Virus record (IMG/VR): IMGVR_UViG_3300023172_000196
Location: 1-23,574 of that record
DNA: 23,574 nt
Source of the DNA: a virus
Reading direction: 5' to 3' (one strand)
Notes under the pieces: generated by a model
Seen by the model: the letters and a program-made list of their open reading frames with translations, nothing else
Database searches by the model: none
What the model was told of the DNA's origin: nothing
Made by a program: the position numbers and the translations under genes
Part shown: positions 2,978-20,501 of the stretch, one piece after another
How positions within the stretch are numbered: the first letter of the stretch is position 1
Layout of the letters: each line of letters opens with the position of its first letter

Positions 2978-5004
2978 TACGCTCCTCCAGTGTAAATTAT
3001 GTAATTCAATGTTAAGTATGGATTCATCACATCCATTGCTTGTCCAATTGTGCCGTCGATGCCACCTGAATTAGGCAGTTGTTGTGCGCCGTTGGCATTG
3101 GCTAAATCTGGTCCTGATGTTGTGGTAACTTCTGGATCTGTAGAAGCACCTGCTATATTTCTTGAGGCAAAGAATTGATCACCGTTATTGGCTCTCAATG
3201 AGTGTTCGTGTTCTGGTAAATTTTCTTTTGTAATTGTTTTCTTCTCATTGCCAGCACCTAATCCTAGTGCATCTGCTGTAGGAGATGTTACTCTGTCTGC
3301 TGATCCTTGTCCTAAACCTGGATTGCTCATATTGTCCTTACCAAGTGCAAATCTTCCTCTTAAATCAGGCAGTTTGAATACTGATGAATTTGATGGTGTT
3401 CCGTACTGTGTTCCGATAACTTGAAACAAAGTGTTATAAACAGATCTTTGTATTTCTGCTCCATCACAGAATAACCAATCTGATGGTGCAGTTGCGCCAG
3501 CATATGCCATGATTGATCCTACTGGAGGAGTTGGAATACTGTTTGTAATGGCACCCACTGTGGTTTTGAAAATTCCTGTGGTGCCTGCTGTTCTATTGAT
3601 TATGATTTCATCACTCACATTGCTTGTGGTTGTCAATGTTTGATTACTGATAAAAGTGTTACTGATGGAAGTATTAAATGTTCTTGGAGTACCTTCATTA
3701 CCTATGAATGAAAAATCCGTAGCAGTAACATCACCAGTCATTCTGAATGTACTTGCTTGAGCCAGTTGGTTAGCAGTGGTGGCTGTTGAGGCATTTCCTG
3801 TGATACTACTGGTTACAACACTTCCTGCTTGTATTTGATTTGCGTAAACTGTGTTGTATCTTTTAGACGTACTTCCTATATTATAAGTTAAATTATCTGT
3901 TGGAATAATGTTGTGTGCTGTGATGTCTCCACCAAATGTTCCTGCTCCGCCTACATTGGCACTCAAAGCAACACCTAATCCACCTTTGGATACAATTGCA
4001 CCTGAACCAATATTAATACTTGGCGATGTACTGTTGGAAACGATTGTGCCAGATGACAGTATGTTGCCTGTTACATCTAATGCTTCTGTAGGATTTGTTT
4101 TATTGATTCCAACTTGTCTTTGTGAACTGATTCTCATCACCGTAGATACAGAACCTTGGTTGTTCAATCTAAAATCTATTTCTTCATCCAGTGTGCCTAA
4201 TTGTATCACACCTGCTTGGTTTTCAACAAACATCTTAAACGTGCCAGCGGCACCAACTTCTAAACCGTCATCTGTTTTAATTTTGATAGGGAAATCTGTC
4301 AATGAAGTTGTATCACTTCTTAAAAAATTACCTGCGGCTACTGTTGTATTTCCTACAACCAAGGCTTCTGCTTTTTCTGATATACCGTAAACTTTATTGA
4401 TACTATCACCAAAGTTGGTTGAACTGATGTTCATTCCTGGATTTAATTGTGAAAAACCAGGAATAGTAATTTTAGGAGTGAATGAATCTTTAGCAATGAT
4501 AGCCACCACTTTAGCATCAACTTCTAATTGTATGATACTGTACGTTAAATCATCTGTGCCTGATACTGTGACCGGTGTTGCTCCTGTTGTTAAACCTTCG
4601 CTGTATTGTGGTCCAATCAAAACCCAACCAGATCCAGTAAACAGATAAAGTTGTTGAGCATTTGTGTCTACCCATAGATCTCCTGAAATACTTTCAGATG
4701 CACTTGGTTGATTGATTGCTTTTTTCAATCCACCTGATGCTACCCAATTGGCACCATCATAAACTTTAAGTTGATTTACGCCTGCTGTGGTGTCAAACCA
4801 TAATTGACCTTCAATAGGTCTTAATGGTGCTGTGCTATTAGCAAAATTTTCTAATATGTGTAAAAAGTTTTCCGCTATTACTGTGCCATAAGAAGTTGTG
4901 TTCTTACCTGGAAAATTAACACTGGTTTCATTGTTTACTGTGTTGTCTTCAATGGTGATAGTACCTTTGTTTACAGCATCAGTAAAACTTATCGTGTATG
5001 CCAT
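2977..5004 (-). CDS. Tail fibre protein with C-terminal tail-collar domain (675 aa)
   Basis: A fibre in the short-tail-fibre style. Residues 1 to about 135 are the shared docking domain (NFPGKNTTSYGTVIAENF, ILENFANSTAPLRPIEGQLW, GDLWVD...QLYLF...LIGPQY). The middle is beta-rich, with HNIIPTDNLTYNIGS followed by KRYNTVYA near residue 370, a form common in trimeric phage fibres (P..D.TY.LGS...RW..VYA). Residues about 496-675 match the phage tail-collar family (Pfam Collar): GSIMAYAGATAPSDWLFCDG, a YNTLFQVIGTQYG stretch, LPDLRGRFALG, NLPEHEHSL and the end NPYLTLNYIIYTGGA. The same family forms the tip of T4 gp12. His599 and His601 form an HxH pair. Start at 5004 is supported by GAAGGG five to ten bases ahead. 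It lies 3 bp after the 203-residue gene and overlaps the next fibre as TAATG. A receptor-contacting or surface-locking fibre is likely; direct equivalence to gp12 is inference. Confidence 0.9.
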   Translation of the reverse strand: MAYTISFTDAVNKGTITIEDNTVNNETSVNFPGKNTTSYGTVIAENFLHILENFANSTAPLRPIEGQLWFDTTAGVNQLKVYDGANWVASGGLKKAINQPSASESISGDLWVDTNAQQLYLFTGSGWVLIGPQYSEGLTTGATPVTVSGTDDLTYSIIQLEVDAKVVAIIAKDSFTPKITIPGFSQLNPGMNISSTNFGDSINKVYGISEKAEALVVGNTTVAAGNFLRSDTTSLTDFPIKIKTDDGLEVGAAGTFKMFVENQAGVIQLGTLDEEIDFRLNNQGSVSTVMRISSQRQVGINKTNPTEALDVTGNILSSGTIVSNSTSPSINIGSGAIVSKGGLGVALSANVGGAGTFGGDITAHNIIPTDNLTYNIGSTSKRYNTVYANQIQAGSVVTSSITGNASTATTANQLAQASTFRMTGDVTATDFSFIGNEGTPRTFNTSISNTFISNQTLTTTSNVSDEIIINRTAGTTGIFKTTVGAITNSIPTPPVGSIMAYAGATAPSDWLFCDGAEIQRSVYNTLFQVIGTQYGTPSNSSVFKLPDLRGRFALGKDNMSNPGLGQGSADRVTSPTADALGLGAGNEKKTITKENLPEHEHSLRANNGDQFFASRNIAGASTDPEVTTTSGPDLANANGAQQLPNSGGIDGTIGQAMDVMNPYLTLNYIIYTGGA
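2980..3519 (-). other. Phage tail-collar domain (C-terminal part of 675-aa fibre)
   Basis: Residues about 496-675 of the collar fibre. Landmarks in order are WLFCDG, YNTLFQVIGTQYG, LPDLRGRFALG near residue 548, NLPEHEH near 596-601, and the final NPYLTLNYIIY. The order and wording match the collar family closely. Confidence 0.9.
2982..2988 (-). promoter_or_regulatory. Strong ribosome binding site GGAGGAG inside upstream gene
   Basis: GGAGGAG lies four bases before the ATG of the 734-residue fibre and encodes the last Gly-Gly-Ala of the upstream collar fibre. It is the strongest Shine-Dalgarno match at any gene start in the window and allows loading or re-initiation at the TAATG overlap. Confidence 0.7.
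4841..4872 (-). repeat. Dispersed 32-bp DNA repeat, copy in collar fibre gene
   Basis: Encodes ENFLHILENFA in the docking domain. The first 16 bases and the last eight are identical to the copy at 585-616. Confidence 0.7.
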
Positions 5005-5007
5005 TTA

Positions 5008-5619
5008 TTACCCTTCGTTAAAACCTGTCAAACTTTGAACTCTAACTGTGTAGTCAATCTGTATTAATCTGTTTAAACTTTTTTGTACAGGATGGAATAT
5101 CACGTGGGTCAAAAGTTTGCCAGTGCCATCCGGTGAATAACTTACTAAACCTAATTCATCAAACACATACAAACTGTTTGTGGCACTTGCGGCATCCACA
5201 GCATCTTGTCCGTTTGGTTCACCGTAGTCTAACAAACAAGTTACCAGTACATCTGTGTAATTTGTTCCATTCACGTGTCTTGTTTCAATTTTATTTCTCT
5301 GTGGATCCAAGTTAGAAACGGATCTGTCATCCACAATTTTTGAATACGTTTGATTGTACAGCGTTGCATTTGTGCCTGTTGAGTTTGGTGTAAGGTATGT
5401 GATGATTCCTGTTGGATCTACACTGGTTCCACCATTACCAAATGCCATTGAATTGATAAATCCTTGCCCTTGATTGGCTATACTTTCTGCCAATGCCACA
5501 CTCATATTTTCGTAATGAATTGCATTGCGTTTATTCACAAAAACCTTGTTGGATTCTGGATCGTGTATCTTTATGTGCCCTTGAATTAGTACACCGCTGT
5601 TTTCGTTAATTTTGCTCAT
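5008..5619 (-). CDS. Conserved-looking virion protein of unknown role (203 aa)
   Basis: Starts MSKINENSGVLIQGHIKIHD and ends RVQSLTGFNEG. The central part (FVNKRNAIHYENMSVALAES, then ANQGQGFINSMAFGNGGTSV) is soluble and mixed alpha/beta in appearance. There is no signal peptide, membrane segment or obvious enzyme motif. I associate this sequence style with small structural proteins of marine T4-like phages but cannot name it. It sits between the giant baseplate-type protein and the first fibre, 24 bp after the former and 3 bp before the latter, so an adaptor or fibre-attachment role is a reasonable inference. In T4 this zone holds gp8 to gp11, but I see no motif tying it to any of them. The start at 5619 is fixed by GGAG with a five-base spacer. 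A late-promoter-like octamer lies just upstream, which would make it the first gene of a unit with the two fibres. Confidence 0.8.
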   Translation of the reverse strand: MSKINENSGVLIQGHIKIHDPESNKVFVNKRNAIHYENMSVALAESIANQGQGFINSMAFGNGGTSVDPTGIITYLTPNSTGTNATLYNQTYSKIVDDRSVSNLDPQRNKIETRHVNGTNYTDVLVTCLLDYGEPNGQDAVDAASATNSLYVFDELGLVSYSPDGTGKLLTHVIFHPVQKSLNRLIQIDYTVRVQSLTGFNEG

Positions 5620-5624
5620 TTTTG

Positions 5625-5628
5625 CTCC
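5625..5628 (-). promoter_or_regulatory. Ribosome binding site GGAG
   Basis: GGAG followed by five bases and the ATG at 5619 fixes the start of the 203-residue gene. Confidence 0.6.
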
Positions 5629-5640
5629 GTTCTACCATTG

Positions 5641-5648
5641 TATTTATT
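5641..5648 (-). promoter_or_regulatory. Putative T4-type late promoter (AATAAATA)
   Basis: On the minus strand AATAAATA overlaps the TAA stop of the giant gene and lies 21 bases before the ATG of the 203-residue gene, the same distance class as the octamer at 761-768. Seven of eight positions match TATAAATA. Transcription from here would start in the 24-bp gap and cover the 203-residue protein and two fibres. Confidence 0.5.
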
Positions 5649-8600
5649 GCGGCACAGCCACTTCCTTTTGACGTATGAATCTTGCTATGTCATTCTCCGT
5701 CTGACTGAGTGGATCTGAGCCTGATTGCCATATTCTACCTTGTTTTCTTACCAGCACTATTTTAGCATTTTCGGCTGGTGTTTCAGTGAATGTTATTCTA
5801 GCAGTTGTACCATCAACACTGAACTCCGCAGGAACTGTCACATCTGCTTCTGGACTGTCTTGTCCTACTGTTGGATCGTACACGCTGATTGCATTTTTTC
5901 GCAATCTCTTACCACCCACAAACAATTCAAATTGATTCACATTTGAAGGTACAAATCCTATATTCAATACATTGTTTACCACGTCTGTGCCAATATAGGT
6001 TTCAGATATGAATTGATCTTGGTAAGGAACATTTTGGAATGCACTTTGATCAAACACTTCTGTATTGACATGATGTACTTCTGCTATTCCTGTACCAAAT
6101 GTTCCTCTTCTTAATTGCTGTAAACTGTTGCCGTCTTTTTGATAGTATTCTATTCTTTCACCATCTATAAAAATTATGCCTGGTAATTGCGAAACCACAC
6201 TAGGTTCTGTGATGCCTGTGGCATCGGTCAGCACAATTTCCTTGTCATACCAGTTCAAGTTTTGTGCCAAGAAGTATTGTCGGTCATTGCCTATACGTTT
6301 GAAATGTGTTCTGTTCATCACATCTTTAAACTGTCTATAAGCAAATTTGCCAATGAATGATGGTGCTGTGAAATGTATCACATCTATTTCATCATTTTGT
6401 GATAGTGTTCTATTAATTTTTAGATACATCTGGTCATTGGACACTGTGTAGTCTATGCTAGGTGCTAACCATTCGCCATTCACGCACACCCAAACATAAT
6501 GAGCATCCACTGCCGGTCTGTTCAATTGAACAACTCCATTGGTCAGTTGATTGTATTGATAATAATCTTCTGTGTTCACTGTGATGGTTAATTTAGCAAT
6601 CACATCATATTGTGTTCTGTCTATTTCTTGAATGTCGTGTTTGCTGAATTGATAAGCAGTGATTTGATTTCCTTGAGCAGGCGCAACACTTAAACTTAAA
6701 ACTCCTGAGTCAGACACTGAGTATTCACCGTTCTCTATGTACACATCTAAAATATCTCCCACAACACCAATTCCTCCTGTCAGCGTAACACTGGAGTTGC
6801 CTGGATTCCAAGTGTATTCTGCGGCTGTCAATTCTCTGTTGTTTAGATATGCTCTGACATCTGTGGTATTGATTGTGCCTGGTAGTAACTGCCAATTTTT
6901 AAATTCATATTCTCTCAAGGCACTAACTGTGTGTTTCTTATGGAATCCACTTCTCAACACATTGTCGTTCACTTTTACAATCACATTGTTTGTGAAAGGT
7001 GTCTGTGTGAAAGGTGTTGGATTCAATTGATATTGTGTAGTACTACCATCACCTGTGTAAATGTTTTGTGTCACTTCGCTGAATGATTGTGATTCACTTG
7101 CGTACACCACAATATTGATCACACTGCTTTGTGCTGGTGCTGTGTTAAATCTAATTGCTACTCTTTCTGCCACAGCATAACTGGAATCTGTTTCAATTAC
7201 TGAATATGTTTGAGTTTCTCCATTCACTTTTACAAATGTTTGAACATTGCCTTGTGTGTATTTTGCTCTTGTTACAAATTCGGTTGTGCTTCCGTCACCT
7301 GTAAATGTATCAACGTCCAATATAGATTCACCATTGTTGCCCATAGTGATAAAGTTTATTTTGTCTCCTGAACTAGGTGCTTGATTAAACACAATATTTT
7401 TGTTTTGATAGTCAACTGTGTATGTGTCATTGTTTTTCAGGATGTTATTCACACTTAAAAATATTGCTGTATTGCTTTGAGGATTATCCACAAATGCAAA
7501 AGTTGTGTTTGAACCATCACCCACATAATTGTAACTGTTAATTTTGCTTCCGGTGTTGGCTCCTCTATCATAAACTTGTATGTCCAGTGTGTCTAACACT
7601 TGTCCTGGCACAAATTCTTCTGGACCTTTGGCTGATATTTCTGTTACAAAACCATCACCATCTATGTTGATGTCTTCAGCATTTATACCTTGTGCTGTTG
7701 AGTAGGCAAGATCTCCACCTTTCACCAATGTGTCCACCGCACTTGGATCTGGCAAGAACGAACCATCACTTGTGGATTTTCTAACAATTATTACATCGCC
7801 GCCAGATACAGTGTAAGTATCAACTGCACCACCTACAACTGTGATTATAGTTATGGTTACATTATTGAACGGAGTTACTCCACCAACATTTTTTCCTAAA
7901 ACTGTTATTATGTCACCTGAGGCAAAATTTTGTCCAGCATTGGTAAATGTTGCTGAATAAGTCGCATTTATTTTATTAATGTCAATTACTGCACCAGTAC
8001 CATTGCCTGAAGTTGTCCAAGCAACTGAATTGTATGTCGCATCAATGTATTCTGATGGTTCTAAAGCACTGATATCGACAGTTTTTGTAGATCCGTCTCC
8101 TATAATTGTTGGTAACGTGTCTGGATCTTTTCTAATTCCGTTTTTATACACATGATATTCAACACCTGCTTCTAACGTTTTAGATAGATCCAGAGTTAAT
8201 GTACTACCATCCAAATAGAAAACTTCATCTTCATAACTTTCATCATAATTGTCCCAATCACCCTGCATATAAGGTTCATTGCCCCAACCTGATGTATCTT
8301 CAAATCCTATACTTCTAACTTCTACTCCACCATAATCTATTCCGTCAATCACTTGAGCAAGTTCTTTGCCTGGCATTCCAGCAGTTGGTTGATAGAGATC
8401 AAATCTATCAGCAGTGTTCAACACATCTTCATTGATTTTGTATGTGATAGATATGGCAGACAAATTGGCTGGTGGTAAAACAAATTGAATGTATCCTGTT
8501 TGTCTAGCATAAGATTTTGTTGTGTCATTATCATTGCCATATGTAAAAGTACTCTTCAATTGTTTTGTTCCATCCACTAAAATTTCAATAGTATTTGTGC

Positions 8601-11600
8601 GTAGATCCATTGGCCATTTCAATTTAAATTTTAATTGACTGTTGTTACCTGTAAAAGTTTCTGTTCTTTGTAAATTTGTTATTAAGGTTGTGCCTGTGTT
8701 TCTATCGAACTTAATACCTATGTGTGATGTGCGTGGTAAACTTTCTCCCAACACAGCACTGGCTTTGGCTTGTACACCTGTTGTTGAACCACTCAATGTT
8801 ACTGTTGGTGAAGAAATATATCCCGATCCACTATTGATTACATTGATTCTACTGACTGCGCCATTTTTTATGTAAGCACGAGCAGTTGCTCCTGATCCTC
8901 CACCGCCAGTGATTTCAACTGCTGGTGGATTTTTGTATTCAGTGCCTGGATCTGCCACATTAATAGCAGTTATCTTATAGCCAATGTTGTCTTTCCAATT
9001 CTTATCTGGATAAGAGTTAATATTATCAGCACCCAATAATTCATCGTTAAACACAGTGACCTTTGAAGGTTCAATGTTTCCGTTAATATATCTAGGAGGA
9101 TAATCAAAATCTGTAATAACAGAATTTGTTGGTTCGGTTTTTTGATATGAACTTACGTATTCTCTAATTTTAGACTTGTAAGGTTTAACTTCTTGAACAT
9201 AGTCTTCATAATTAGATAGATTGTCATTTTTAAAAGTAATTTTTTGTGTTAATTCACCAACATTGTGCTGTGCTTTTACAAAACTGGTTTTGAACACAAA
9301 GTCGTTCAGTTTGTTTTCAGAAAGAGCGTAGTGGATGCCAGCAAAATATAATTTGTTATATTCTACTGCTAACTCTTCTACAAATATTCTATCACGCACT
9401 GTTTCCAGTATAACTCTTGTTTCTTGAATAGGTTGTCTGTCGTACAATTGAATATCAAAACTGTTTGAATCAAATCCAACGTTTCCGCTGTACACATAAA
9501 GTTTATCTGAGAACTGAATTGTTCCGTTTTGTCTTCCTATTGTTTCATAATTAACAGTGTAATCAACATCAGGTTGTGAATCTATTTTTTTCAACAACAA
9601 CCAACCGCCTGCGCCTATGTTGTTGATTTTTATTATTTGACCAACTGAATCACTAATGCCATTTATTTCATAACTTTGTGAAATCACATGATCTATTGCT
9701 GTGAATTGATTGTACCCTTCAGCATACCAATCTGCATAATCCCAATACAAGTTGACATTGTAGGCTTGTATTTTAGATTTTAACCAACCTTCTGTGATTG
9801 AATAACTGTAGATTGCCCATTTGCCATCAACAGTGCTGTCCGAAGAAACAAGAGCACTAAATTTTCTGATTTCAACTGTGGCAGTGTTTGAATAGTTTTT
9901 GCCTTGAGATAATATTCTAGCACTGCTGATAGATCCATTTGAATCTATAGACAATCCAATCACTCCGCCTTCTCCTGTGCTAGTTTTGATCTTGTATGTA
10001 GGAATAGTTCTGTAACCTTTTCCTGGATCTGTAACAACAGCGTTGATTAATTTGCCATTTTCAACTGTGATGTTTATGGAAGCAGGTTTTACTGAACCTA
10101 CACCAACAAAATCTAAATCTTTTTCTGTATCCACAATCAAATCAAACAAACCAGTATTAATGCTAGGCGCTGGATCAGATTGAGTCAATGTGTCAATGTT
10201 AACTTCATCAACAATTAAGTTATTGATCAAAACCGAATTAATTCTTTCAACAGTTTGCTTCAGTGCCTCTTGTTTGTTTGCGAACCAACTCTGTCTTGGC
10301 GCTTGTAGTGTTCCATATTTTAATTTTTCACTTAAATTAGGATCAGGTATAGGATTGAATTGTTCATCATATCCTATTAAACTGTTAAACCAAACTGATT
10401 CAATATCTTTAGGCAGTGTGCTTTCAGCAGAACCTTCAGTAAGCAACGCATATTCTTTGTGGACATTGTTGTTTGTTTCGATTGATTTTAATCTAAAACT
10501 GATAATTGTGTCTTGATCTTGAATAAATTGATCACAATTCACAATGGCAAATTTATTTTTGCCAAATATTGTTACATATTTGTAACCTTGACTTCTAGGA
10601 TTTTCTATCAATTTAGCAACAGCATTGGCACTCAATGATCTTGATTCTATTTCCGGGGTGGTTGTTTTTCCTTTTACCCAGAAGTAATATCTATTAGATA
10701 AAACACCTGCCACTTTGTCATAAACTTTTCTTGTCACATAATCTGTTGGATTATCAACGGTGCCAGTAATTCCAAGTGCTTCGCCTTCCGCAGATGCACT
10801 TATTGAATTGTATTGAGTTGGAGTGTACTGAGATTCAGTCCATTCATGAACATCTATACTGGCTCCTACAAACAACTTGTTCCAATAAGAATTGTTAAAA
10901 ATTATTGTGCTTTGATATGGATAGTAATATTGTGCTTTGCTGATATTCCACCAAAGTCTACCTACCTGTGTTTTGTCCCAATGATTTGTTTTATCTATTG
11001 TACCTACTGCTGTGTCCATATTGTAGACAGCAGGATCGTAATTTGTTTTATAATACAGTTCTGCTTCTGCAGGTCCAGGAATTTTTCCAAATATTGGATC
11101 CACATAATCTAATCTTGTAAGCAATTTATTCTGTGATTTACTGTACAAGAAAATACCATCTATTTTGCTCAGATCAGGTTGATCAATACCTTCACTGCTT
11201 TCATGGATACTGTTCCAATTGTTTTCATTTGGTGCTTTTCTAAAGTCTACCACTGTGCCTTTTTGTTTATCTGTCAATTGAAGTTTCGGTAAGCCAACAT
11301 ACACGTGATTATTATTAACTAATAAATTAGTGCCGAATTGGTCAAAACTGTTATCATAACTGAATTTTTCAGCATACAATAATGTGTTTTCAAATTTTTC
11401 AAAAAGATGAACCGATCCAACATCATACCTTGTGTCTAACACTGTTGAGCCATCATCAACCTGTTGATCTCCTTTTAAGGAAGTTACAGCCAACACATCG
11501 CCGCTGAATGATAATGTATTACCAAACTGCTCTGATATTTCTTTGTCTGGACTGGACAATGTTTGATTCAACGTGTAAATGCCAGTGTCATTGTTTACTT

Positions 11601-14600
11601 TCTTGTAAACATAAACCACTCCCATGTCCACTTGTGATAAATCTTTCAACGGTGAACCCACTGCTATTAATTCTCCATTGCCCGATATACTGACGTCAGA
11701 TCCAAAATCGATTGTTGGAGCGGAATCCTCCGGTGGGATTATTGTTTGTTTGAATGTGTAGTGTTCACCATGTAGTCTATAAACTGTGACATCTTGTGTG
11801 CCATTGTTGTATTGATTGGTGATTACTATGTTAACTCCGTTGGTGTCAACGTCAAATGTTTGAGCAAATCTTATTAATCTACTCTGATCTAGAGTAGAAT
11901 CACCATGCAGTTCAATGCCACTATCATTGGGAATATATCCTAAGAAGTCAGCATGAGTATCTTGTAAATCCCATAAATTAGAATTCCAACTGTTGGCACT
12001 GATATTTGTTTTGGCTTTGTAAATTTGATTGTTAAACGCAACTAATTCATCTTTCAAATAATCAGCAGTATCATCAAATTCACCCATGTAATTTTCATCT
12101 ACACCCAACCACCAATTTTTTGTAGAATTATACTTGACAAAATAAATCTTGCCTGGCAAGTTGGTTGTGCCATCTCCTTGAGCACTGATAAACGCAACTG
12201 TGGTTCCATCAACATCACGCAGTTGTATTTTAGATCCTAAACGCAATCCTGACTGAGTATCTGGAACTGTGAATGCTGAATTATAAGCGTACTGTCCTGA
12301 TGTATCTTTTTTGTAAACTAAAAAGGCACCTTGATTGGTAAATCCACTTGCTGTGCCCTCTCCTATTGGAATATTGTAAGTTTGAATCCAATCTTTGTTT
12401 TGACTGCTAGGAATATTTGCTGTTTGAGGAATTCCTTGAACATTTTCAAATTCATCCCATATCCAATATTCAATATCATTGACAGAATAGAACGCAGGAT
12501 CTCCAGAAACTGTGATGGCAGACGAGTGTTCAAATACTAAAATGTCTCCATCTGTTGGTCCTGACTGTACAGATTGTTCTATTGAACCAAGTAATCTATC
12601 AACTCCTCCGCCTAATCTTTGTATGGTGGAAGATGCTCCTGCATCAGATCCTAAACTGAACAATTTGGATCCTGTTGGATTGACTGTGTTTCTAGCATTT
12701 CTAAAGTAAACTCTAATTTTCTCAAGACCTATAAACTGAACAAATGTTACATCTGCTTCAACAAATGTTGTTGTATCATAAATTCTGTGTACGCCTGCTT
12801 CAGGAAAATAATAATTTGTGTTATTGTCTGGTTGAGAATCTATGTCTACATAACCTTCCCAAACATCTACAACTTCTTTTACACCATTTGTGTCATCACT
12901 GTCTATGTTTAAATCGGCAAAATCAAAAGCATTCTGATCCACATTGTTAAACCAAACACTCATATCATTTGTTGAATTGCTTGAATTTAAACCACTGTCA
13001 TGAGCAATGTCATAACTGGTTCTCACAAACCATTTGTTGCTCAATATGTTTGTGCCTGTAATCTCCCAACTGTTGTTGGCAGGATTGATATGATATTGTT
13101 GATAATGTGATCCTACTCCAAATTGTGCTTTAACCAAAGGACTTTGTGGAGTTATAGGATTTATACTTTGTTCCAATGAACTAGAAAACCTATTTGTATC
13201 TCTAATTTCATTCAATAATTTTATATCTTGTACTACTACATTGGCAGAAATGTCTGCACCTGCATTGGTTGACACACCGGCTCCTATTCCAACTTTCCAC
13301 CAACCACCTAAATAATCATAATCTTCTGTGTTTACTCTTGTGTAATCTCCAATTGGTAATGTGTCTAACAATAAATTACCGCTGGCAGAAAATATTCCGC
13401 TCACATTTTTCAAATACAATATAGTTTTAGCCGCAACTTTTCTAAGATAAACTATGGTTCCTTCAGCAGTATCAGTGCTGACCAAGTTGCCTATTTGTGG
13501 GTCTGTCAGTGTTAATTCTATTTGTAAAATTTCATCTACCTTTTCTTGAATTGAAATTTCAGCACCAGAAAACACATTATTCTTTATGGTAGGAGCACCA
13601 ACTCCATTGAATGGTTGATTAACAGGTTTGTTGTAATTGTTTCGATCAATGGGATATTCTGTACTGAAATCAAGATATTTTAAAACCAATTTATCCCCGA
13701 TTTTTGTTGCTGTGTATTGATCAGCAGATGCTCTTATCAACAAGTGATCTGTGGTTTCGTTTGGAAATACACTGTCACCAATTAACAGATTAGTAGTTTG
13801 GAATCCTATGTTTTCTTTGTAAAAAGCAGAAGCATCTACTGTAGAAAATAAATCGTTAGCAACAGCACCTTCTATTTGATTGGTTGCTCTCCATAATTGA
13901 TTTTTGTATTGAACAATGTTACCAATATTGTAATTTGATGTAGTATTGTAAATTCCTTTGTATTCTGTTTGTAAGTTGCTGGCAGTTGGAGCACCTATCA
14001 ACACAAAATTGCCATCTGAAGAAATATCTACTGCCTGACCAAAACTGCTGTTTGAATCAAACAGTTCAAGATTAAACAATGGATCAGATGTAGGAGCCTC
14101 TATCACTTGAGACAATCTTAGCAATCCACTTTCAGTGCCTCTTATGAACACATAAATTTTCCCATCTCCGTCTGTTGGTTGACTCACCAATAATGTTGAA
14201 TTTTGTTTATTTGCGGCAATTACTGTTCCGAAACTTTCGTCACCTGATGTGCTGGTTGAACTTACTTCATTGTGTGTGCTAAACACAAATTTGTTATTAA
14301 CAATTTTCCATTTACCGTCATCACTTTGATCTATCCAGAATTTTTCATTATCCTGTAATCCTTGATCATTAATCACTGTGTTGATATCATCGATAGATGC
14401 AAGTCTGTGAGTGATAAATCTTTTAATATAACCGTTTGCTGGATCCACTGTTACGAAACCTTCTTTGTCCTCACACACAATTTCAGTACCATTTACTGAT
14501 GTACATTTTAAAACATAATCAGTACCATCCACATTAACAACAAAAATCTCTCCTGGATTCATAACAGCATTGTTCACTGTGTTTACTGTGATAATGTTCG

Positions 14601-17600
14601 AGTCTTTCACAATTGACGTAGTTGTTTGTTGTGTGGCTATGTACTTGAAAACTGTCCAGGTTTTATTGTAATTTCCAATCCATACATACTCGCCTTCATT
14701 TAAATTTTCGACTTTTGTGTCAGTCAACATATCATCATACTGTGATAATGTTAAAGATATATCAATCGGATTTACTGGTCCTGCTGTTTTGATATAAGTT
14801 TCTCTGTCATACTTGACAGGAAATGGAGTGTGTTGATAATTTTTCGGAGCAAGATAAGTTTGTCCCGACTGTATGCGATATACTAAATCAGTGGCATTGG
14901 TAGATGATTCATCCGTTAACTTTATGGGTTGAGGATTTAGTCTAAATTTTGATTCGTCCAATCTATATTCAATTTCATCAAATGTATCCACAGCACCATA
15001 CTGACCTTTTCTAATAGCCCATTCTTCATAAAAATTTAAACTTTCTTTATCAGCACTTGCCAAAGCATCAAATAACTTGTTGAGTGAATTAGCCGTTCCT
15101 TTTTCTCTTATGAATCCTTGATAGAATTTGTATTGACTGACGTCATCATTAATAATGTTTCTTAAATATTCTCTTGGTTGGTATCCTATCAAATGCTGTG
15201 CTAATTTTTGCTGTTGACTGTCAAAATTATCTGTGTCTAAATCATAAAAGTCTGCGAATTGATTGGTTTTATAATCAAAGTTAGATAAAAGACTGCTTTG
15301 AGGTTTACCATCAAGTCTACGCCAATCTGTGTCATTGAACTCTTGAGTTCCTTTAAGTTTACTGTTTGCTGTGTAATAAAATTCTTTGTGTTTAACCACA
15401 TCACTCATTGCGTAATCTGTGTATGGAGACCATTCAGTCACTTTGGCTTCATCAAACACAAATCCTGGAATATTTAAACTGCCATCCCATTCGGTTATGT
15501 AACCTAACATTTTTATTCTGTCTTGTTTGTACCCACTTGCTGGATCATAAATCAAGTCGTTGAATTCTGTAACGTTGTCGATCAAACACACGTGTTCTTT
15601 TTGAACTACAGGTATCTTAGCAAAATATATTCCGTTTATTGTGTTTTTTGTAAACAGTTCAAAAAGATTTGATTGTCTAGTAATTCTTAAATTTTGTTTA
15701 CTTAAATTATTTCCATCCTCTTTTAATACACCATGGGAATAAAAATTATCCACCACGTTGTCAGTTGTGGCATATTCAGTACGAACTACCAGTTTTTTAC
15801 TGGCAGGACTTAAACTGATCACAGCACCTTCGTTCCAATTCTGTGTGGTCCAAAACAAAAATTCTTTGGCACTCAACTGCCAATTTGCCACCAATAATGT
15901 TTGAGGATCGAATTGATCAAAAAGGAAACCTTTAGACTTCAAATATGATTCATAACCTAATATAACATCAACAATTGATTGAATCGAATCATAAACTGTG
16001 CCATAAGGAACTTCAACAAAACTGTCTGTAATAAATTTTTTCCTAAACACAGCAGTTGCTCCGCCTTCTGTAGGCAGTTCAACTAATTTTACAAATTTAG
16101 TACTGTCAAATGTAGCATCTGAAATATGTGTTTCGTTCACAGCATAAAATTCATTAGCGTATTTGACATATGCTCCTCTGTCATATCTTTTGTTTTCACT
16201 CCAATTCACAAAAGACGCACTTACTCCTCCTACTCTTATCACTGGATCATTGTTTTGTTCAAACACTGTGTGATATCTTACATATGGATCATTTTTATCA
16301 TATCCTTTTATGCTGTATCCACTGGCTAATTTTTCAATAATTAATCCACTGTAAGTTAAAATTTCAATAGGAGTTGATACGTTATAAACCAATTCATAAT
16401 TTTCATCTGGCACAAACAGTGTCGTCGAATTGATAGGAGTTTTACTGTCTAACAACAGTTTAAAATTGTTTTTGTTGCTGTATCCTCTTACTTTAAATCC
16501 AATCTGTGTCTCAAGACCAATAAATTGTGATTGGTATTCATCATAATTTGTGGTTTGTGAATTTTCAACCACTTCATATATGTAATTGATTAAACCAGAT
16601 GTTAATTGTGTTTCTTTATCATTAATACTGTTTGGAAATAAAATATCTTTAGGCTTAATTGCTGTTAAAGAATTGTAAACAATTTGTCCACTGGCATTTC
16701 TTTTTGTTCTACTTACATCTAAACCAATACCGATTGCTTTGTTTGGTTGATGTAAAATATAACTTTTTAACAGAGCAAATGGATAGTGTACACTTCTTCT
16801 CCAGGCATTTTCTATTGGTGCATGGTCACCGAATTTGTATTTTTGTTTTGTTAATTGTAATACTGCTCCTCTGGCATAAGCACTATCAAATGGACTTTTT
16901 ATATTGCCTTCACCATCTACTGGAATTGTGTTTGTTAAACCTGGTCTTTTGTATTTGTCTTTAATAATAATTTTTTTGTTAGGTTCTCTAACAATGCCTT
17001 TTTCTAGATCCTGCCATAACACAAGATTATCACCTGTGTAAGGCGCTGGACCATAAACAGTTTGCCACCATGATGGTTCTTCAGTGAAACCCAATATCTC
17101 CCAAGGAGCAATATTAGGTCTATCTGTATCATAAGCATATTTGTAGATGCCTCTCCAGAATCCTAATAGTTTTTCTCCTGTAGGAGAAACCATGTTAGAA
17201 TAATTCCAGGTTAAACTGTTGTCATCTGTTTGATAAGAGTTAGCAGTGTAATCTTCATTGCCAATAAAAGTTAGCCAATCATTAAAATCACTCAGCAATG
17301 TTTTGTTGATAGATTCAAATGTAAAAAGATTGGTTGTGTTAGCACGTGGTAAAAATGTTTTGATGCCAAATAAATCTTCATCAAACTCCACTTTGATATT
17401 GTTGTAAATTCTTTTCTCTAATTCTAAGATGACATCATCTCTAAAATCATTAAACGCAACAGTGACACTGCCATCATGTCCTTGAATCACATTCAATGGT
17501 TCAACAGCCGTGGTATCTAAATATTTTTTTGGAGTGTATTTAGGATATAAACCCAACTTGGTCGGTGTTGCTGGTATGTGACAACCGTTTGTTGTTTCAA

Positions 17601-20499
17601 ATTCGTTGATTATGATGGTGTCATCCAATGTTAATGCTTTGGTTACACTAACAAACCCATCAGAAAAAATATAGTCATGCCCATGTAATAATTGTTCCCC
17701 ATTCAGATATACATACACTGCTTGACTGCTCAGTGTTGTAAGATTGTGATTTTTAGATAGAGCAAAAAATGTATTGCCAACATCTAACACTTGATGTGTG
17801 GTGCTGATAAAAGCACCTATACCCAACATATCAGTTTTAAAGTATGGAAGACTGCTGTTGTTGTCTATGTTTAATTTTTGTAAAATTTTATCAACTATCT
17901 GTACTGGAGTTCCTTCAAAACCTAAATCATCCATAGCAGTCACAAATGAACGTTTAAATTTATAGTAATCATTTTGATTTTGAGAAATTGCTGTTATCAA
18001 ATTGACAGATTTATTATTCAATAAAAATGAAGATAACACCATAGGCCCACTGTGCTGTAAAAATTTTCTACCATATGCTGAAGCATTTGGAAAATCTCTT
18101 AAGTTGCTGATGCCTGGTGTCACACCTTGAATCTCTGTTAATTCATTGGTGATTGTTTTCACATGGTCAGTGACCTGCCCCACAGTGAATGTGCTTAATT
18201 TTTCATTAAGCGGATTTGCCTGCATATTTGTAGGAAATTCGTAGTGTCCATTTTGATTTTTATCTGTGGCACTTGTGGTTCTAATCAATAATACATCGTC
18301 TTTTTTGAGATCTTGATTAAATTTTACATAGGCAACTGAATTTAATCTCAAAATGTACCAATCTACATTTTCAATTTTTTTAATATTGTTTACAAATACA
18401 TTGGCTTTTAAGTCATTTAAATCACCGCTTTTGTCATAAACATCTATAGCAAAATCATTAGTTTGATCATCTGCCACATATAATCTATTAATTTTTTGGA
18501 AACTGTCTGTTGGTGCTTTGGTCCAACCGTTAATAACACTTGCCTGTCCTTGAGCATTGTATTTTTTTAAAAATGCTGATTCGGAATTAAGAGTTCCGCT
18601 AACTGCTTGTGATTGATACACATAAGATTGAGTTACTAGATCAAAATTAAAAACAATGTCACCGATGTTTTCAACATTTTGATACTGTAATGGAAATCCC
18701 AGTTCAGCATCATTTGTGCCTGAACCCACAGCGTAAGAAAAGATTTTGTTTCCTCTGAAAGAACTATTAGGATATAGTATGGTGTCATTGAAACTGTTGC
18801 CGTCGGCGTCAAACAGATCAAATAACGGAGTTTGATTTGTGTTGATTTTTTCCTGACCCACGTTCCAACTGGTATCATAATAATACAATTTGCCTTGATT
18901 TTTTACACCATTTGTAACCAACACAGTTTCGCCTGATACAGGATTGCTGTTTGCTGTTTCAACCAAACTGATCTGTCTTGTGGTAACACCGTTATCTTCA
19001 AAGTCAATAAATTTTACTTCAAAAATTTTATTTTTTACCAAAGGATCTTGGTCAGCAGTGAATAAAATCTTTACACCATTGGTTACTGCCACACCGTCCA
19101 CATAAAAACCTTGAGATCCTTCCACGTCACTCATTACATCTGTTGTAACTGTGTCAATAAAATCTACATTGCCTTTTGATGTTGTTCCAAAATTAAATAA
19201 TTTAATTCCTGGTTCAAACTCTATAATGGGTCTACGTGCTCTACTAGATTGATCTATGGATGGTACTTCACCATTTGCCTCGGCGCTGTTTTCTATAACA
19301 GAACGATGAACCCATCTGTTGTGTCTGCTCCATGGATTTCTATCAGCACTGGCTCTGTTGATCACAATGTAATCTTTATTGATAGCATATGAAGTTGCTG
19401 TTCCAAATCCCACTGTGTCAAAATTTTGAGAATCAAAAGGTATTGGCACATTGTTTGTAAATGAACTGACAACTTCTAATTCTTGAGCATTGATAAGTTG
19501 AATTGACTCTCCAACACCTTCCACATAGTATTCTCCTTCAGCATAAGACTCCGGAGTCACTGTGCCTTTAAAGTTCACTTTCATACCATTAGAAAGAGCA
19601 ACTCCGTCAGCAGTGGTGTAGTTTTTCTTGCCTGCCACTTCTTTCAATACATCAATAGCAGAATTTTCTTCTATATCGTTTATGAGTATTAATCCCCAAG
19701 CATTGATATCGTTAGATGAACCATAGTATAATTTTTCTGGAGCAGAATCTTTAACTATAAAAGTGATTACTCCGTTTTCAACACCTTGAACATCTATTCC
19801 ATCAGTAACATTGTAAGAATCATCTAGTATTCTTTGTGTTCTAATAACAAAAGGTAAGCCTTCAGCATTTATATCAAACTTGTATGTTTGACCTTTGTAT
19901 AAATTTAATGTAGGATTTGCTGTTACACCATCTGGGGTAAAAATGTAAGCATAGTTATCACCTTGATCAGATTTTGTTACTGTGTATGTGCTGACAACAT
20001 TTCTTTGTTGTCCTGTGATTGACACTGTGGATGCACCGTATGGCATCCAAAAATATTCTCTGTAATTAACAAACTTGTCCCAATCTATTCTAGGTGACCA
20101 TGCATAATATTCTTGAGCATTCATCACACTGTGATTGACCATCGAACTGTTGTAATTTTTAATTTGATTTACAAAGTCAATATAATCACTATAAAAATTT
20201 ACATTACCAAGATCATCTTTTTGTACCACACTGGGTTCGAATTTATAATTTTCTCTATCAGCACTTACTTCAGGCACATACAAATCGCTAGGATTATAAG
20301 CATCTGTGACTTTTCTTCCATAGTAAGCATTAAGTTTTTCAAGAGTACCTTGAGATATCAGTTGATCAAGAGTGCTGTGTAAAAACTTTTGATTTACTGG
20401 TGTACGAAAATATTTAGGTAAAAATTCTGACGATTCTCTTTTGCCATTGTCTTTGCCTGCTGGCAAATCAAAATCTTTTTGATTGTTGTCGAAAGCCAT
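5644..20499 (-). CDS. Giant modular virion structural protein (4,951 aa), probably baseplate/tail periphery
   Basis: One open frame of 14.86 kb from ATG (TAATG overlap with the wedge gene) to TAA at 5646-5644. No signal peptide, membrane segment, intein motif or enzyme motif is seen, and only about six cysteines. Layout by residue: 1-170, an N-terminal domain (FLPKYFRTPVNQKFLHSTLD; YYAWSPRIDWDKFVNYREYF); about 295-340 and 470-520, two copies of a DGVAxxNGxKxxF motif; about 1141-1172, WQTVYGPAPYTGDNLVLW; about 1793-1860, REKGTANSLNKLFDAL; 2088-3090, a split FG-GAP-type propeller; about 3140-3220, VGRLWW and SIDVHEW; about 3487-3543 and 3845-3915, Gly-rich GxGY repeats; about 3946-4080, YQPTAGMPGKELAQVIDG; about 4326-4535, tandem GDGSTT beta repeats; about 4775-4830, FIDGERIEYY and QLRRGTFGTG. 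Four aromatic modules near 1433, 1686, 2177 and 2803 resemble CBM5/12. The slot after a gp6-like gene is that of T4 gp7, but the length is nearly five times greater and gp7 homology is not shown. I class it as a giant structural protein of marine T4-like phages. Confidence 0.88.
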   Translation of the reverse strand: MAFDNNQKDFDLPAGKDNGKRESSEFLPKYFRTPVNQKFLHSTLDQLISQGTLEKLNAYYGRKVTDAYNPSDLYVPEVSADRENYKFEPSVVQKDDLGNVNFYSDYIDFVNQIKNYNSSMVNHSVMNAQEYYAWSPRIDWDKFVNYREYFWMPYGASTVSITGQQRNVVSTYTVTKSDQGDNYAYIFTPDGVTANPTLNLYKGQTYKFDINAEGLPFVIRTQRILDDSYNVTDGIDVQGVENGVITFIVKDSAPEKLYYGSSNDINAWGLILINDIEENSAIDVLKEVAGKKNYTTADGVALSNGMKVNFKGTVTPESYAEGEYYVEGVGESIQLINAQELEVVSSFTNNVPIPFDSQNFDTVGFGTATSYAINKDYIVINRASADRNPWSRHNRWVHRSVIENSAEANGEVPSIDQSSRARRPIIEFEPGIKLFNFGTTSKGNVDFIDTVTTDVMSDVEGSQGFYVDGVAVTNGVKILFTADQDPLVKNKIFEVKFIDFEDNGVTTRQISLVETANSNPVSGETVLVTNGVKNQGKLYYYDTSWNVGQEKINTNQTPLFDLFDADGNSFNDTILYPNSSFRGNKIFSYAVGSGTNDAELGFPLQYQNVENIGDIVFNFDLVTQSYVYQSQAVSGTLNSESAFLKKYNAQGQASVINGWTKAPTDSFQKINRLYVADDQTNDFAIDVYDKSGDLNDLKANVFVNNIKKIENVDWYILRLNSVAYVKFNQDLKKDDVLLIRTTSATDKNQNGHYEFPTNMQANPLNEKLSTFTVGQVTDHVKTITNELTEIQGVTPGISNLRDFPNASAYGRKFLQHSGPMVLSSFLLNNKSVNLITAISQNQNDYYKFKRSFVTAMDDLGFEGTPVQIVDKILQKLNIDNNSSLPYFKTDMLGIGAFISTTHQVLDVGNTFFALSKNHNLTTLSSQAVYVYLNGEQLLHGHDYIFSDGFVSVTKALTLDDTIIINEFETTNGCHIPATPTKLGLYPKYTPKKYLDTTAVEPLNVIQGHDGSVTVAFNDFRDDVILELEKRIYNNIKVEFDEDLFGIKTFLPRANTTNLFTFESINKTLLSDFNDWLTFIGNEDYTANSYQTDDNSLTWNYSNMVSPTGEKLLGFWRGIYKYAYDTDRPNIAPWEILGFTEEPSWWQTVYGPAPYTGDNLVLWQDLEKGIVREPNKKIIIKDKYKRPGLTNTIPVDGEGNIKSPFDSAYARGAVLQLTKQKYKFGDHAPIENAWRRSVHYPFALLKSYILHQPNKAIGIGLDVSRTKRNASGQIVYNSLTAIKPKDILFPNSINDKETQLTSGLINYIYEVVENSQTTNYDEYQSQFIGLETQIGFKVRGYSNKNNFKLLLDSKTPINSTTLFVPDENYELVYNVSTPIEILTYSGLIIEKLASGYSIKGYDKNDPYVRYHTVFEQNNDPVIRVGGVSASFVNWSENKRYDRGAYVKYANEFYAVNETHISDATFDSTKFVKLVELPTEGGATAVFRKKFITDSFVEVPYGTVYDSIQSIVDVILGYESYLKSKGFLFDQFDPQTLLVANWQLSAKEFLFWTTQNWNEGAVISLSPASKKLVVRTEYATTDNVVDNFYSHGVLKEDGNNLSKQNLRITRQSNLFELFTKNTINGIYFAKIPVVQKEHVCLIDNVTEFNDLIYDPASGYKQDRIKMLGYITEWDGSLNIPGFVFDEAKVTEWSPYTDYAMSDVVKHKEFYYTANSKLKGTQEFNDTDWRRLDGKPQSSLLSNFDYKTNQFADFYDLDTDNFDSQQQKLAQHLIGYQPREYLRNIINDDVSQYKFYQGFIREKGTANSLNKLFDALASADKESLNFYEEWAIRKGQYGAVDTFDEIEYRLDESKFRLNPQPIKLTDESSTNATDLVYRIQSGQTYLAPKNYQHTPFPVKYDRETYIKTAGPVNPIDISLTLSQYDDMLTDTKVENLNEGEYVWIGNYNKTWTVFKYIATQQTTTSIVKDSNIITVNTVNNAVMNPGEIFVVNVDGTDYVLKCTSVNGTEIVCEDKEGFVTVDPANGYIKRFITHRLASIDDINTVINDQGLQDNEKFWIDQSDDGKWKIVNNKFVFSTHNEVSSTSTSGDESFGTVIAANKQNSTLLVSQPTDGDGKIYVFIRGTESGLLRLSQVIEAPTSDPLFNLELFDSNSSFGQAVDISSDGNFVLIGAPTASNLQTEYKGIYNTTSNYNIGNIVQYKNQLWRATNQIEGAVANDLFSTVDASAFYKENIGFQTTNLLIGDSVFPNETTDHLLIRASADQYTATKIGDKLVLKYLDFSTEYPIDRNNYNKPVNQPFNGVGAPTIKNNVFSGAEISIQEKVDEILQIELTLTDPQIGNLVSTDTAEGTIVYLRKVAAKTILYLKNVSGIFSASGNLLLDTLPIGDYTRVNTEDYDYLGGWWKVGIGAGVSTNAGADISANVVVQDIKLLNEIRDTNRFSSSLEQSINPITPQSPLVKAQFGVGSHYQQYHINPANNSWEITGTNILSNKWFVRTSYDIAHDSGLNSSNSTNDMSVWFNNVDQNAFDFADLNIDSDDTNGVKEVVDVWEGYVDIDSQPDNNTNYYFPEAGVHRIYDTTTFVEADVTFVQFIGLEKIRVYFRNARNTVNPTGSKLFSLGSDAGASSTIQRLGGGVDRLLGSIEQSVQSGPTDGDILVFEHSSAITVSGDPAFYSVNDIEYWIWDEFENVQGIPQTANIPSSQNKDWIQTYNIPIGEGTASGFTNQGAFLVYKKDTSGQYAYNSAFTVPDTQSGLRLGSKIQLRDVDGTTVAFISAQGDGTTNLPGKIYFVKYNSTKNWWLGVDENYMGEFDDTADYLKDELVAFNNQIYKAKTNISANSWNSNLWDLQDTHADFLGYIPNDSGIELHGDSTLDQSRLIRFAQTFDVDTNGVNIVITNQYNNGTQDVTVYRLHGEHYTFKQTIIPPEDSAPTIDFGSDVSISGNGELIAVGSPLKDLSQVDMGVVYVYKKVNNDTGIYTLNQTLSSPDKEISEQFGNTLSFSGDVLAVTSLKGDQQVDDGSTVLDTRYDVGSVHLFEKFENTLLYAEKFSYDNSFDQFGTNLLVNNNHVYVGLPKLQLTDKQKGTVVDFRKAPNENNWNSIHESSEGIDQPDLSKIDGIFLYSKSQNKLLTRLDYVDPIFGKIPGPAEAELYYKTNYDPAVYNMDTAVGTIDKTNHWDKTQVGRLWWNISKAQYYYPYQSTIIFNNSYWNKLFVGASIDVHEWTESQYTPTQYNSISASAEGEALGITGTVDNPTDYVTRKVYDKVAGVLSNRYYFWVKGKTTTPEIESRSLSANAVAKLIENPRSQGYKYVTIFGKNKFAIVNCDQFIQDQDTIISFRLKSIETNNNVHKEYALLTEGSAESTLPKDIESVWFNSLIGYDEQFNPIPDPNLSEKLKYGTLQAPRQSWFANKQEALKQTVERINSVLINNLIVDEVNIDTLTQSDPAPSINTGLFDLIVDTEKDLDFVGVGSVKPASINITVENGKLINAVVTDPGKGYRTIPTYKIKTSTGEGGVIGLSIDSNGSISSARILSQGKNYSNTATVEIRKFSALVSSDSTVDGKWAIYSYSITEGWLKSKIQAYNVNLYWDYADWYAEGYNQFTAIDHVISQSYEINGISDSVGQIIKINNIGAGGWLLLKKIDSQPDVDYTVNYETIGRQNGTIQFSDKLYVYSGNVGFDSNSFDIQLYDRQPIQETRVILETVRDRIFVEELAVEYNKLYFAGIHYALSENKLNDFVFKTSFVKAQHNVGELTQKITFKNDNLSNYEDYVQEVKPYKSKIREYVSSYQKTEPTNSVITDFDYPPRYINGNIEPSKVTVFNDELLGADNINSYPDKNWKDNIGYKITAINVADPGTEYKNPPAVEITGGGGSGATARAYIKNGAVSRINVINSGSGYISSPTVTLSGSTTGVQAKASAVLGESLPRTSHIGIKFDRNTGTTLITNLQRTETFTGNNSQLKFKLKWPMDLRTNTIEILVDGTKQLKSTFTYGNDNDTTKSYARQTGYIQFVLPPANLSAISITYKINEDVLNTADRFDLYQPTAGMPGKELAQVIDGIDYGGVEVRSIGFEDTSGWGNEPYMQGDWDNYDESYEDEVFYLDGSTLTLDLSKTLEAGVEYHVYKNGIRKDPDTLPTIIGDGSTKTVDISALEPSEYIDATYNSVAWTTSGNGTGAVIDINKINATYSATFTNAGQNFASGDIITVLGKNVGGVTPFNNVTITIITVVGGAVDTYTVSGGDVIIVRKSTSDGSFLPDPSAVDTLVKGGDLAYSTAQGINAEDINIDGDGFVTEISAKGPEEFVPGQVLDTLDIQVYDRGANTGSKINSYNYVGDGSNTTFAFVDNPQSNTAIFLSVNNILKNNDTYTVDYQNKNIVFNQAPSSGDKINFITMGNNGESILDVDTFTGDGSTTEFVTRAKYTQGNVQTFVKVNGETQTYSVIETDSSYAVAERVAIRFNTAPAQSSVINIVVYASESQSFSEVTQNIYTGDGSTTQYQLNPTPFTQTPFTNNVIVKVNDNVLRSGFHKKHTVSALREYEFKNWQLLPGTINTTDVRAYLNNRELTAAEYTWNPGNSSVTLTGGIGVVGDILDVYIENGEYSVSDSGVLSLSVAPAQGNQITAYQFSKHDIQEIDRTQYDVIAKLTITVNTEDYYQYNQLTNGVVQLNRPAVDAHYVWVCVNGEWLAPSIDYTVSNDQMYLKINRTLSQNDEIDVIHFTAPSFIGKFAYRQFKDVMNRTHFKRIGNDRQYFLAQNLNWYDKEIVLTDATGITEPSVVSQLPGIIFIDGERIEYYQKDGNSLQQLRRGTFGTGIAEVHHVNTEVFDQSAFQNVPYQDQFISETYIGTDVVNNVLNIGFVPSNVNQFELFVGGKRLRKNAISVYDPTVGQDSPEADVTVPAEFSVDGTTARITFTETPAENAKIVLVRKQGRIWQSGSDPLSQTENDIARFIRQKEVAVPQ
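11957..12090 (-). other. CBM5/12-like aromatic module 4 (giant protein)
   Basis: Residues about 2803-2848. YMGEFDDTADYLKDELVAFN, then NQIYKAKTN and a closing NSNLWDLQD. It lies between propeller blades C and D. Confidence 0.5.
12345..13965 (-). other. About 540-residue insertion inside propeller blade B
   Basis: Residues about 2178-2718. It begins right after the EYKG of blade B with an aromatic CBM5/12-like module and ends just before GAFLVYKK, which reads as the missing second half of that blade. The rest is beta-rich sequence with GGWWKVGIGAG, WFVRTSYDIAHDSG and DIEYWIWDEFENV stretches that I cannot assign to a family. Confidence 0.5.
13840..13968 (-). other. CBM5/12-like aromatic module 3 (giant protein)
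   Basis: Residues about 2177-2220. YNTTSNYNIGNIVQYKNQLW followed by RATNQIEG. It lies at the exact start of the insertion in propeller blade B. Confidence 0.45.
15303..15441 (-). other. CBM5/12-like aromatic module 2 (giant protein)
   Basis: Residues about 1686-1732. EWSPYTDYAMSDVVKHKEFY then YTANSKLKG and a closing DTDWRRLDG. This is the most complete copy, including the final W. Confidence 0.5.
16090..16205 (-). other. CBM5/12-like aromatic module 1 (giant protein)
   Basis: Residues about 1432-1470. NWSENKRYDRGAYVKYANEF followed by YAVNETH has the W...xxYxxGxxVxYxxxxYxA spacing of chitin/cellulose-binding type 5/12 modules. Fold assignment is by pattern only. Confidence 0.45.
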
Positions 20500-20501
20500 T
20501 A
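20497..20501 (-). promoter_or_regulatory. TAATG stop-start overlap linking wedge and giant genes
   Basis: The TAA of the wedge gene (20501-20499) shares one A with the ATG of the giant gene (20499-20497). Upstream there is only a weak GGGGG at 20516-20512 and a GGA at 20507-20505, so translation of the giant protein probably depends on ribosomes finishing the wedge gene. Confidence 0.6.

Follow-up and report, generated by a model that had tools for sequence, protein, structure and literature searches.

A predicted seven-bladed FG-GAP propeller with nested insertions in a giant baseplate-associated phage protein

The propeller region of a giant phage protein

The virus record IMGVR_UViG_3300023172_000196 of IMG/VR, a stretch of 23,574 bases referred to here as the window, has as its main open reading frame (ORF) a stop-free sequence of 4951 residues on the minus strand. 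In an earlier note, made from the sequence alone, the part encoded at 11235-14240 on this strand (residues 2087-3088) was proposed to be a seven-bladed FG-GAP-like propeller, split within its second blade by ≈ 540 residues that would form one large extra domain. The propeller features are compiled below, with the evidence for each in brackets.

5644-20499, minus strand: baseplate-associated giant ORF of 4951 aa that occupies the gp7 gene position (T4 gene order; annotation of the PA5oct homologue)
11200-14286, minus strand: entire propeller region including its insertions, residues 2072-3100 (Pfam, AlphaFold2 model, structural match)
14260-14280, minus strand: N-terminal strand, residues 2074-2080, expected to complete blade 7 as strand 4 (structural match, with the alignment starting at model residue 32 and integrin alpha-M residue 1)
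14083-14232, minus strand: blade 1, residues 2090-2139 (blade profile, model)
13984-14043, minus strand: blade 2, strands 1-2 with FG and GAP, residues 2153-2172 (blade profile, model)
12262-12336, minus strand: blade 2, strands 3-4 including GAFLVYKK, residues 2722-2746 (blade profile, model)
12106-12240, minus strand: blade 3, residues 2754-2798 (blade profile, model)
11734-11877, minus strand: blade 4, residues 2875-2922 (model; 2.3 bits with the blade profile)
11551-11706, minus strand: blade 5, the best FG-GAP_2 match, residues 2932-2983 (Pfam, blade profile, model)
11359-11529, minus strand: blade 6, residues 2991-3047 (model; 2.3 bits with the blade profile)
11230-11337, minus strand: blade 7, residues 3055-3090, with its fourth strand from 2074-2080 (model)

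The FG dipeptides are found where they had been reported, at residues 2090, 2153, 2932, 2992 and 3055, together with degenerate blades near 2754 and 2875. A search of residues 2040-3128 against Pfam returned FG-GAP_2 (PF14312) in three stretches with 57.0 bits (E = 2.3e-15, cut-off 23); PF01839 (FG-GAP) gave no match in the record itself, the fitting family being PF14312. A blade profile built from eight relatives, with the window left out, matched the window at residues 2090-2139, 2153-2195, 2717-2750, 2754-2795, 2903-2925, 2932-2993 and 2992-3038. Five of its matches scored 41.7, 19.4, 15.8, 11.2 and 8.2 bits, compared to a best value of 4.1 among 200 shuffled controls. Blades 4 and 6, at 2.3 bits, fall under the shuffle maximum and blade 7 is unmatched, such that all three depend on the structure model. 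Profile positions 1-31 are matched at 2153 and positions 22-55 at 2717; because these ranges complement each other, the two make up one blade. The motif GAFLVYKK occupies residues 2724-2731, ≈ 550 residues beyond the GAP of blade 2, close to the ≈ 540 residues of the earlier note. As read from the aligned ranges of model strands and relatives, rather than from residue pairs, the strand at 2165-2170 probably pairs with 2724-2731.

With a profile of the whole region, sequences in the Protein Data Bank (PDB) were matched by integrin alpha-4, alpha-L and alpha-6 at E values of ≈ 1e-6 to 1e-7, as well as by a chitinase at E 0.02. Searches of cultured phages by tblastn with the propeller, and with that of the relative L079, returned no match; the relative L070 as query gave as its sole match an FG-GAP gene elsewhere in phage Phosso, and a search of genome contigs with L070 gave no relatives.

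The propeller region of the window was modelled with AlphaFold2 from an alignment with 26 relatives. The model has a mean predicted local distance difference test (pLDDT) of 80.4 and a predicted template-modelling score (pTM) of 0.59; the propeller blocks lie mostly at pLDDT 85-95, blade 2 and the strands of the modules described below at 87-95. It superimposes on integrin alpha-M with Z 30.3 (357 residues, 3.4 Å, 15% identity) over residues 2071-3096. The natural relative L062, which is without the large insertion and served as the insert-free case, gave a pTM of 0.80 and an integrin alpha match of Z 31.9 over 356 residues, again over the full range. Thus closed propellers are predicted both with and without the large insertion, the outcome by which the earlier note wished its proposal to be judged. 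The integrin alpha chains that the two models match from end to end bear an inserted I domain. Since WD40 propellers also match near Z 28-29, the fold class is clear, and the closeness to integrins rests on the sequence profile and the FG-GAP motif. Taken together, the model and the matches of the entire propeller to seven-bladed integrin alpha and WD40 structures support the blade count of seven put forward earlier, and a predicted fold in which seven four-stranded blades close into one integrin-type propeller.

Nested modules in the second blade

The interruption of blade 2 sits in the loop between its strands 2 and 3 (2-3 loop), and consists of two layers, a module resembling carbohydrate-binding modules (CBMs) of type 5/12 and a larger domain within it.

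13864-13974, minus strand: N-terminal part of the CBM5/12-like module in the 2-3 loop of blade 2, residues 2176-2212 (Pfam, alignment to relatives, model)
12394-13863, minus strand: domain of ≈ 490 aa inside that module, residues 2213-2702 (alignment to relatives; no Pfam, PHROG or PDB sequence match beyond the CBM edge)
13300-13806, minus strand: first copy of the duplication in this domain, residues ≈ 2232-2400 (hhalign)
12550-13050, minus strand: second copy, residues ≈ 2484-2650 (hhalign)
12364-12414, minus strand: C-terminal part of the CBM5/12-like module with its W strand, residues about 2696-2712 (alignment with the intact CBMs in L062, L067, L070 and L071; model strand)
11956-12102, minus strand: second module of CBM5/12-like type, in the loop that joins blade 3 to blade 4, residues 2800-2848 (same place and motif as in L062, which has two Pfam CBM_5_12 stretches; model strands)

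Within the 2-3 loop of blade 2, the relatives L062, L067, L070 and L071 carry the CBM5/12-like module without interruption, L070 for instance as YKGAFNVNANYLIGDIVLYAGRLYKATDNIQGDGSTIDVYSNEWTEV, while L064 and L079 have no such module there. In the window and in the insert-bearing relatives, the module runs from ≈ 2180 to ≈ 2213, where it is interrupted by ≈ 490 residues, and continues with its W strand from ≈ 2703. Because the module is whole in some relatives and missing in others, the layers are a propeller that contains a CBM-like module, which in turn contains the large domain. Within the propeller regions, CBM5/12 (PF02839) exceeds its cut-off of 26.2 bits in L062 (29.1) and L070 (34.8), with the best stretches at the homologous place; the split copy of the window, at 17.3 bits, stays below it. 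The CBM-like modules also show weak profile matches to chitinase domains. The proposal of a domain inserted into a blade loop is borne out by the position in the 2-3 loop and by relatives with an empty site, whereas a single inserted domain is not what was found. A further correction to the earlier picture is that a second CBM-like module follows blade 3 and that the long loops cluster on one face.

The large domain is largely beta and a tandem duplication, as judged from the model and from the comparison of its two halves by hhalign (probability 96.7, E 3e-10). Beyond the CBM edge, searches for it in Pfam, PHROGs, PDB sequences and, by tblastn, cultured phages were all negative; further weak matches of its profile elsewhere in the giant proteins were judged to be noise. 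The pLDDT drops to 55-62 at residues ≈ 2210-2229 and to 56 at ≈ 2680-2689, which would fit flexible tethers to the insert. The relative L063 has a different domain in the same CBM-like loop (its residues 2267-2338), which over 72 residues shares 43% identity with the stretch 4155-4225 in the window protein. This latter part belongs to a module of ≈ 86 residues (residues ≈ 4148-4233, window 7801-8058), which also occurs in L011, is absent at that place in the ≈ 82% identical L004 and most others, and looks like a shuffling module.

Relatives, conserved cores and loop faces

A scan of viral contigs for relatives of the insert yielded 273 stretches, of which 80 were kept. All 87 copies examined, without exception, occupy this one site in the giant protein, and 84 of them are preceded by a blade match, the other three beginning at a contig edge; as some loci overlap on the same contigs, the 87 copies do not stand for as many independent phages. 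The giant protein was found in uncultured, mostly marine phages. Its cores are shared by the cultured jumbo phages PA5oct, Atu_ph07, Phosso, SCTP-2, RaK2 and Vibrio 2.275, in which the propeller is absent and its site is filled by 100 to ≈ 1500 residues of other material. In Atu_ph07 (≈ 1650-3170) and Phosso (≈ 1670-3200), about 1500 residues with repeated glycine-rich motifs of the type GxGY..P.v.i.GGgg.GA are found at the site; the window protein, too, has matches to these motifs, at residues ≈ 3840-3915. Sinorhizobium phage Phosso possesses, in addition, a separate giant protein (gene 108; 2806-6960 of the locus L098) whose first 1385 residues contain 14 stretches of FG-GAP_2 (413 bits), and despite this gene its baseplate giant protein is without a propeller.

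On a tree of the cores (residues 1150-1860 and 3105-3430, 59 rows; a quick search with some long branches), the large insert accounts for one change, with branch support of 80 in the Shimodaira-Hasegawa-like approximate likelihood ratio test (SH-aLRT) and 97 for the union with L058. The presence of the propeller requires two changes, e.g., one gain and one loss in L066, and change counts by themselves cannot separate gain from loss. By sequence comparison, the relatives make up a natural series of proteins with no propeller, a bare propeller, a propeller with a CBM module, and a propeller with a split CBM module. Mean identities are 33% for the insert, 38% for the propeller, and 52% and 49% for the two cores; the propeller region is the variable segment within an otherwise conserved giant protein.

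With loops set by the model strands and a long loop taken as 25 or more residues, the 2-3 and 4-1 loops were long in 61 of 280 cells, compared to 8 of 260 among the 1-2 and 3-4 loops; the sequences being related, the 61 cells are not 61 independent events. In an up-and-down four-stranded blade, the 2-3 and 4-1 loops share one face of the propeller, hence all modules inserted there should project from the same face of the wheel. Exceptions to this pattern occur in L071 (≈ 2345-2500) and in the 5C-5D loop of L069, L078 and L082, where blades 3 and 5 carry 91-149 inserted residues in 3-4 loops.

The propeller is flanked by the two cores, and the gene upstream of the giant ORF encodes a gp6-like protein.

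20499-23573, minus strand: gp6-like protein of the baseplate wedge, its reading frame open at the end of the window (phrog_10646, E 4e-241)
14560-20499, minus strand: conserved N-terminal core, residues 1-1980, common to cultured jumbo phages (homology to jumbo phages)
9100-11187, minus strand: conserved C-terminal core after the propeller, residues 3105-3800 (homology)

The giant ORF directly follows the gp6-like gene, the two having base 20499 in common; in T4, gp6 is immediately followed by gp7, again with overlapping ends, and the window shows the same gp6-gp7 order. The best family of the giant ORF is phrog_10938, a phage virion protein (E 9e-296; a profile match over the core with collinear homology), and the PA5oct homologue is annotated as a virion protein identified by ESI-MS/MS (electrospray ionization tandem mass spectrometry). 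A comparison of the core profiles with the single T4 gp7 sequence by hhalign gave a probability of 0.1%, i.e., no similarity to this one sequence, which was used in place of a gp7 family profile, and no match was obtained to T4 gp6; the designation gp7 thus denotes a gene position and not a demonstrated homology. Profile searches of the PDB with both cores found no baseplate structure, and for the N-terminal core weak CBM-type matches. Two more CBM5/12-like stretches lie in the conserved N-terminal core, at window 16075-16218 and 15295-15432 (residues ≈ 1428-1475 and ≈ 1690-1735), and similar matches occur in the cores of PA5oct, SCTP-2, Atu_ph07 and Phosso. Three consecutive proteins are encoded at 2-742, 773-2977 and 2977-5004 on the minus strand (P0006, P0003 and P0004); by eye, their N-terminal ≈ 120 residues are alike, the last one ends in a Phage Tail Collar domain, and the trio probably represents paralogous tail fibre or pin proteins.

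Proposed role and comparison with known systems

On balance we lean towards a giant protein that is a component of the baseplate wedge and whose closed FG-GAP propeller, with its nested inserts, serves as a rigid display platform for glycan- or surface-binding modules. The integrin-alpha-type propeller would be placed between two conserved core segments of the wedge protein in the gp7 position, and could, as a rigid wheel at the periphery of the baseplate, display its modules on one face, where they may bind glycans or the surface of the host envelope or capsule, flexible tethers being provided at both ends of the large insert. The CBM5/12-like modules on the 2-3/4-1 face, the variable occupancy of the site, and the greater divergence of insert and propeller than of the cores argue for adhesion, and it is in this sense that the carbohydrate or receptor platform suggested earlier would be understood. 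A number of points weigh against this proposal. Adhesion via the displayed modules is a role that we infer, and the CBM5/12-like modules may serve structure, because they are also found in the conserved core. The peripheral location rests on gene order, since there is no sequence link to T4 gp7; same-face display follows from blade topology rather than from coordinates, and the orientation of the insert is not fixed by a model with a pTM of 0.59. Classical receptor-binding tips are often hypervariable; the insert keeps to one kind over many contigs and is not hypervariable. The more far-reaching notion of an integrin-like adhesive baseplate head in widespread uncultured phages, one face of which repeatedly took up modules, among them the domain nested in a CBM within a blade, in functional parallel to the alpha-I domain, and which acts as a main or secondary receptor-binding device, must be regarded as tentative and rather doubtful.

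The main competing explanation, a serious one even if we would not call it probable, is a structural docking hub, in which propeller and modules bind tail fibres and gp8- or gp10-like proteins and set the baseplate geometry without direct host contact. In T4, gp7 and gp8 together form a platform for gp6, and gp9 and gp10 are further contacts of gp7 (PMC3004832), a set of contacts well suited to a hub, as are the CBM-like modules of the conserved core, the constant position of the insert and its co-inheritance. On the other hand, related jumbo phages with the same core (RaK2, PA5oct, L083-L085) do without the propeller, the propeller region is more diverged than the core, and L063 carries a different domain in the same loop. 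That the ≈ 490-aa insert is an enzyme presented by the propeller, e.g., a glycan depolymerase, appears improbable: tail-associated depolymerases are common in phages and the insert is large, but it is largely a beta tandem duplication in the model, and searches of Pfam, PHROG and PDB, at the level of sequence and not of the fold of the isolated insert, gave no match. Finally, the weak sequence signals of blades 4 and 6 might be taken to mean that there is no insertion at all, but two independent domains with FG-GAP-like motifs arising by chance or forming a non-closed array. The existence of empty-site relatives, the two matching blade halves that border the insert, and the full-range matches to closed propellers with and without it make this most improbable.

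FG-GAP propellers are already widespread in viral proteins, as seen by structure search, and the insertion of a domain into a propeller is known from integrins; what is new is that the insertion is nested, that intermediates make up a natural series, and that all this occurs in a baseplate protein. In full-text searches that combined FG-GAP or propeller with phage tail or baseplate and covered part of the literature, no paper on this arrangement came up. The series would document how a blade loop, and then the loop of the inserted module, each took up further domains, it suggests that insertion on a face equivalent, by blade topology, to that of integrin alpha-I arose in phage baseplates, and it points to candidate surface-binding modules in uncultured phages.

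Compared to T4 gp7, the giant protein has the same gene position after gp6, but comprises 4951 instead of 1032 aa, and profile comparison with the single T4 sequence showed no similarity. The "virion structural protein" family phrog_10938 of PA5oct, Atu_ph07, RaK2 and SCTP-2 shares the core (≈ 1-1970 and ≈ 3080-3800) and the place after a gp6-like gene; these jumbo-phage proteins are without the propeller, and have a short linker, glycine-rich repeats or other domains at its site. Viral FG-GAP_2 (PF14312) propellers matched in fold within BFVD include FG-GAP repeat proteins of uncultured Caudovirales, the "hemagglutinin" of Atu_ph07, a virion protein of S-TIM5 and giant-virus proteins; set apart by names and lengths only, they look like other proteins.

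The best match of the phage propeller, both by structure and by sequence profile, is integrin alpha. As in integrin alpha-M, alpha-L and alpha-X, there are seven FG-GAP blades, the N-terminal strand is aligned likewise, a large domain is located near blade 2 and, by blade topology, the insert occupies the same 2-3/4-1 loop face as the alpha-I domain. The integrin alpha-A (alpha-I) domains lie between propeller blades II and III (PMC12383024), whereas the phage insert is located within blade 2, nested in a CBM-like module; it is largely beta and internally duplicated, in contrast to the von Willebrand A (Rossmann) fold of alpha-I, and so is not an alpha-I domain. The integrin calcium motif DxDxDGxxD is likewise not seen in the 1-2 (A-B) loops of the window propeller, which comprise 2-5 residues, and blade 3 has only RDVDG. 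With a baseplate component on one side and a heterodimeric receptor on the other, the two systems display a parallel in placement rather than membership of one group.

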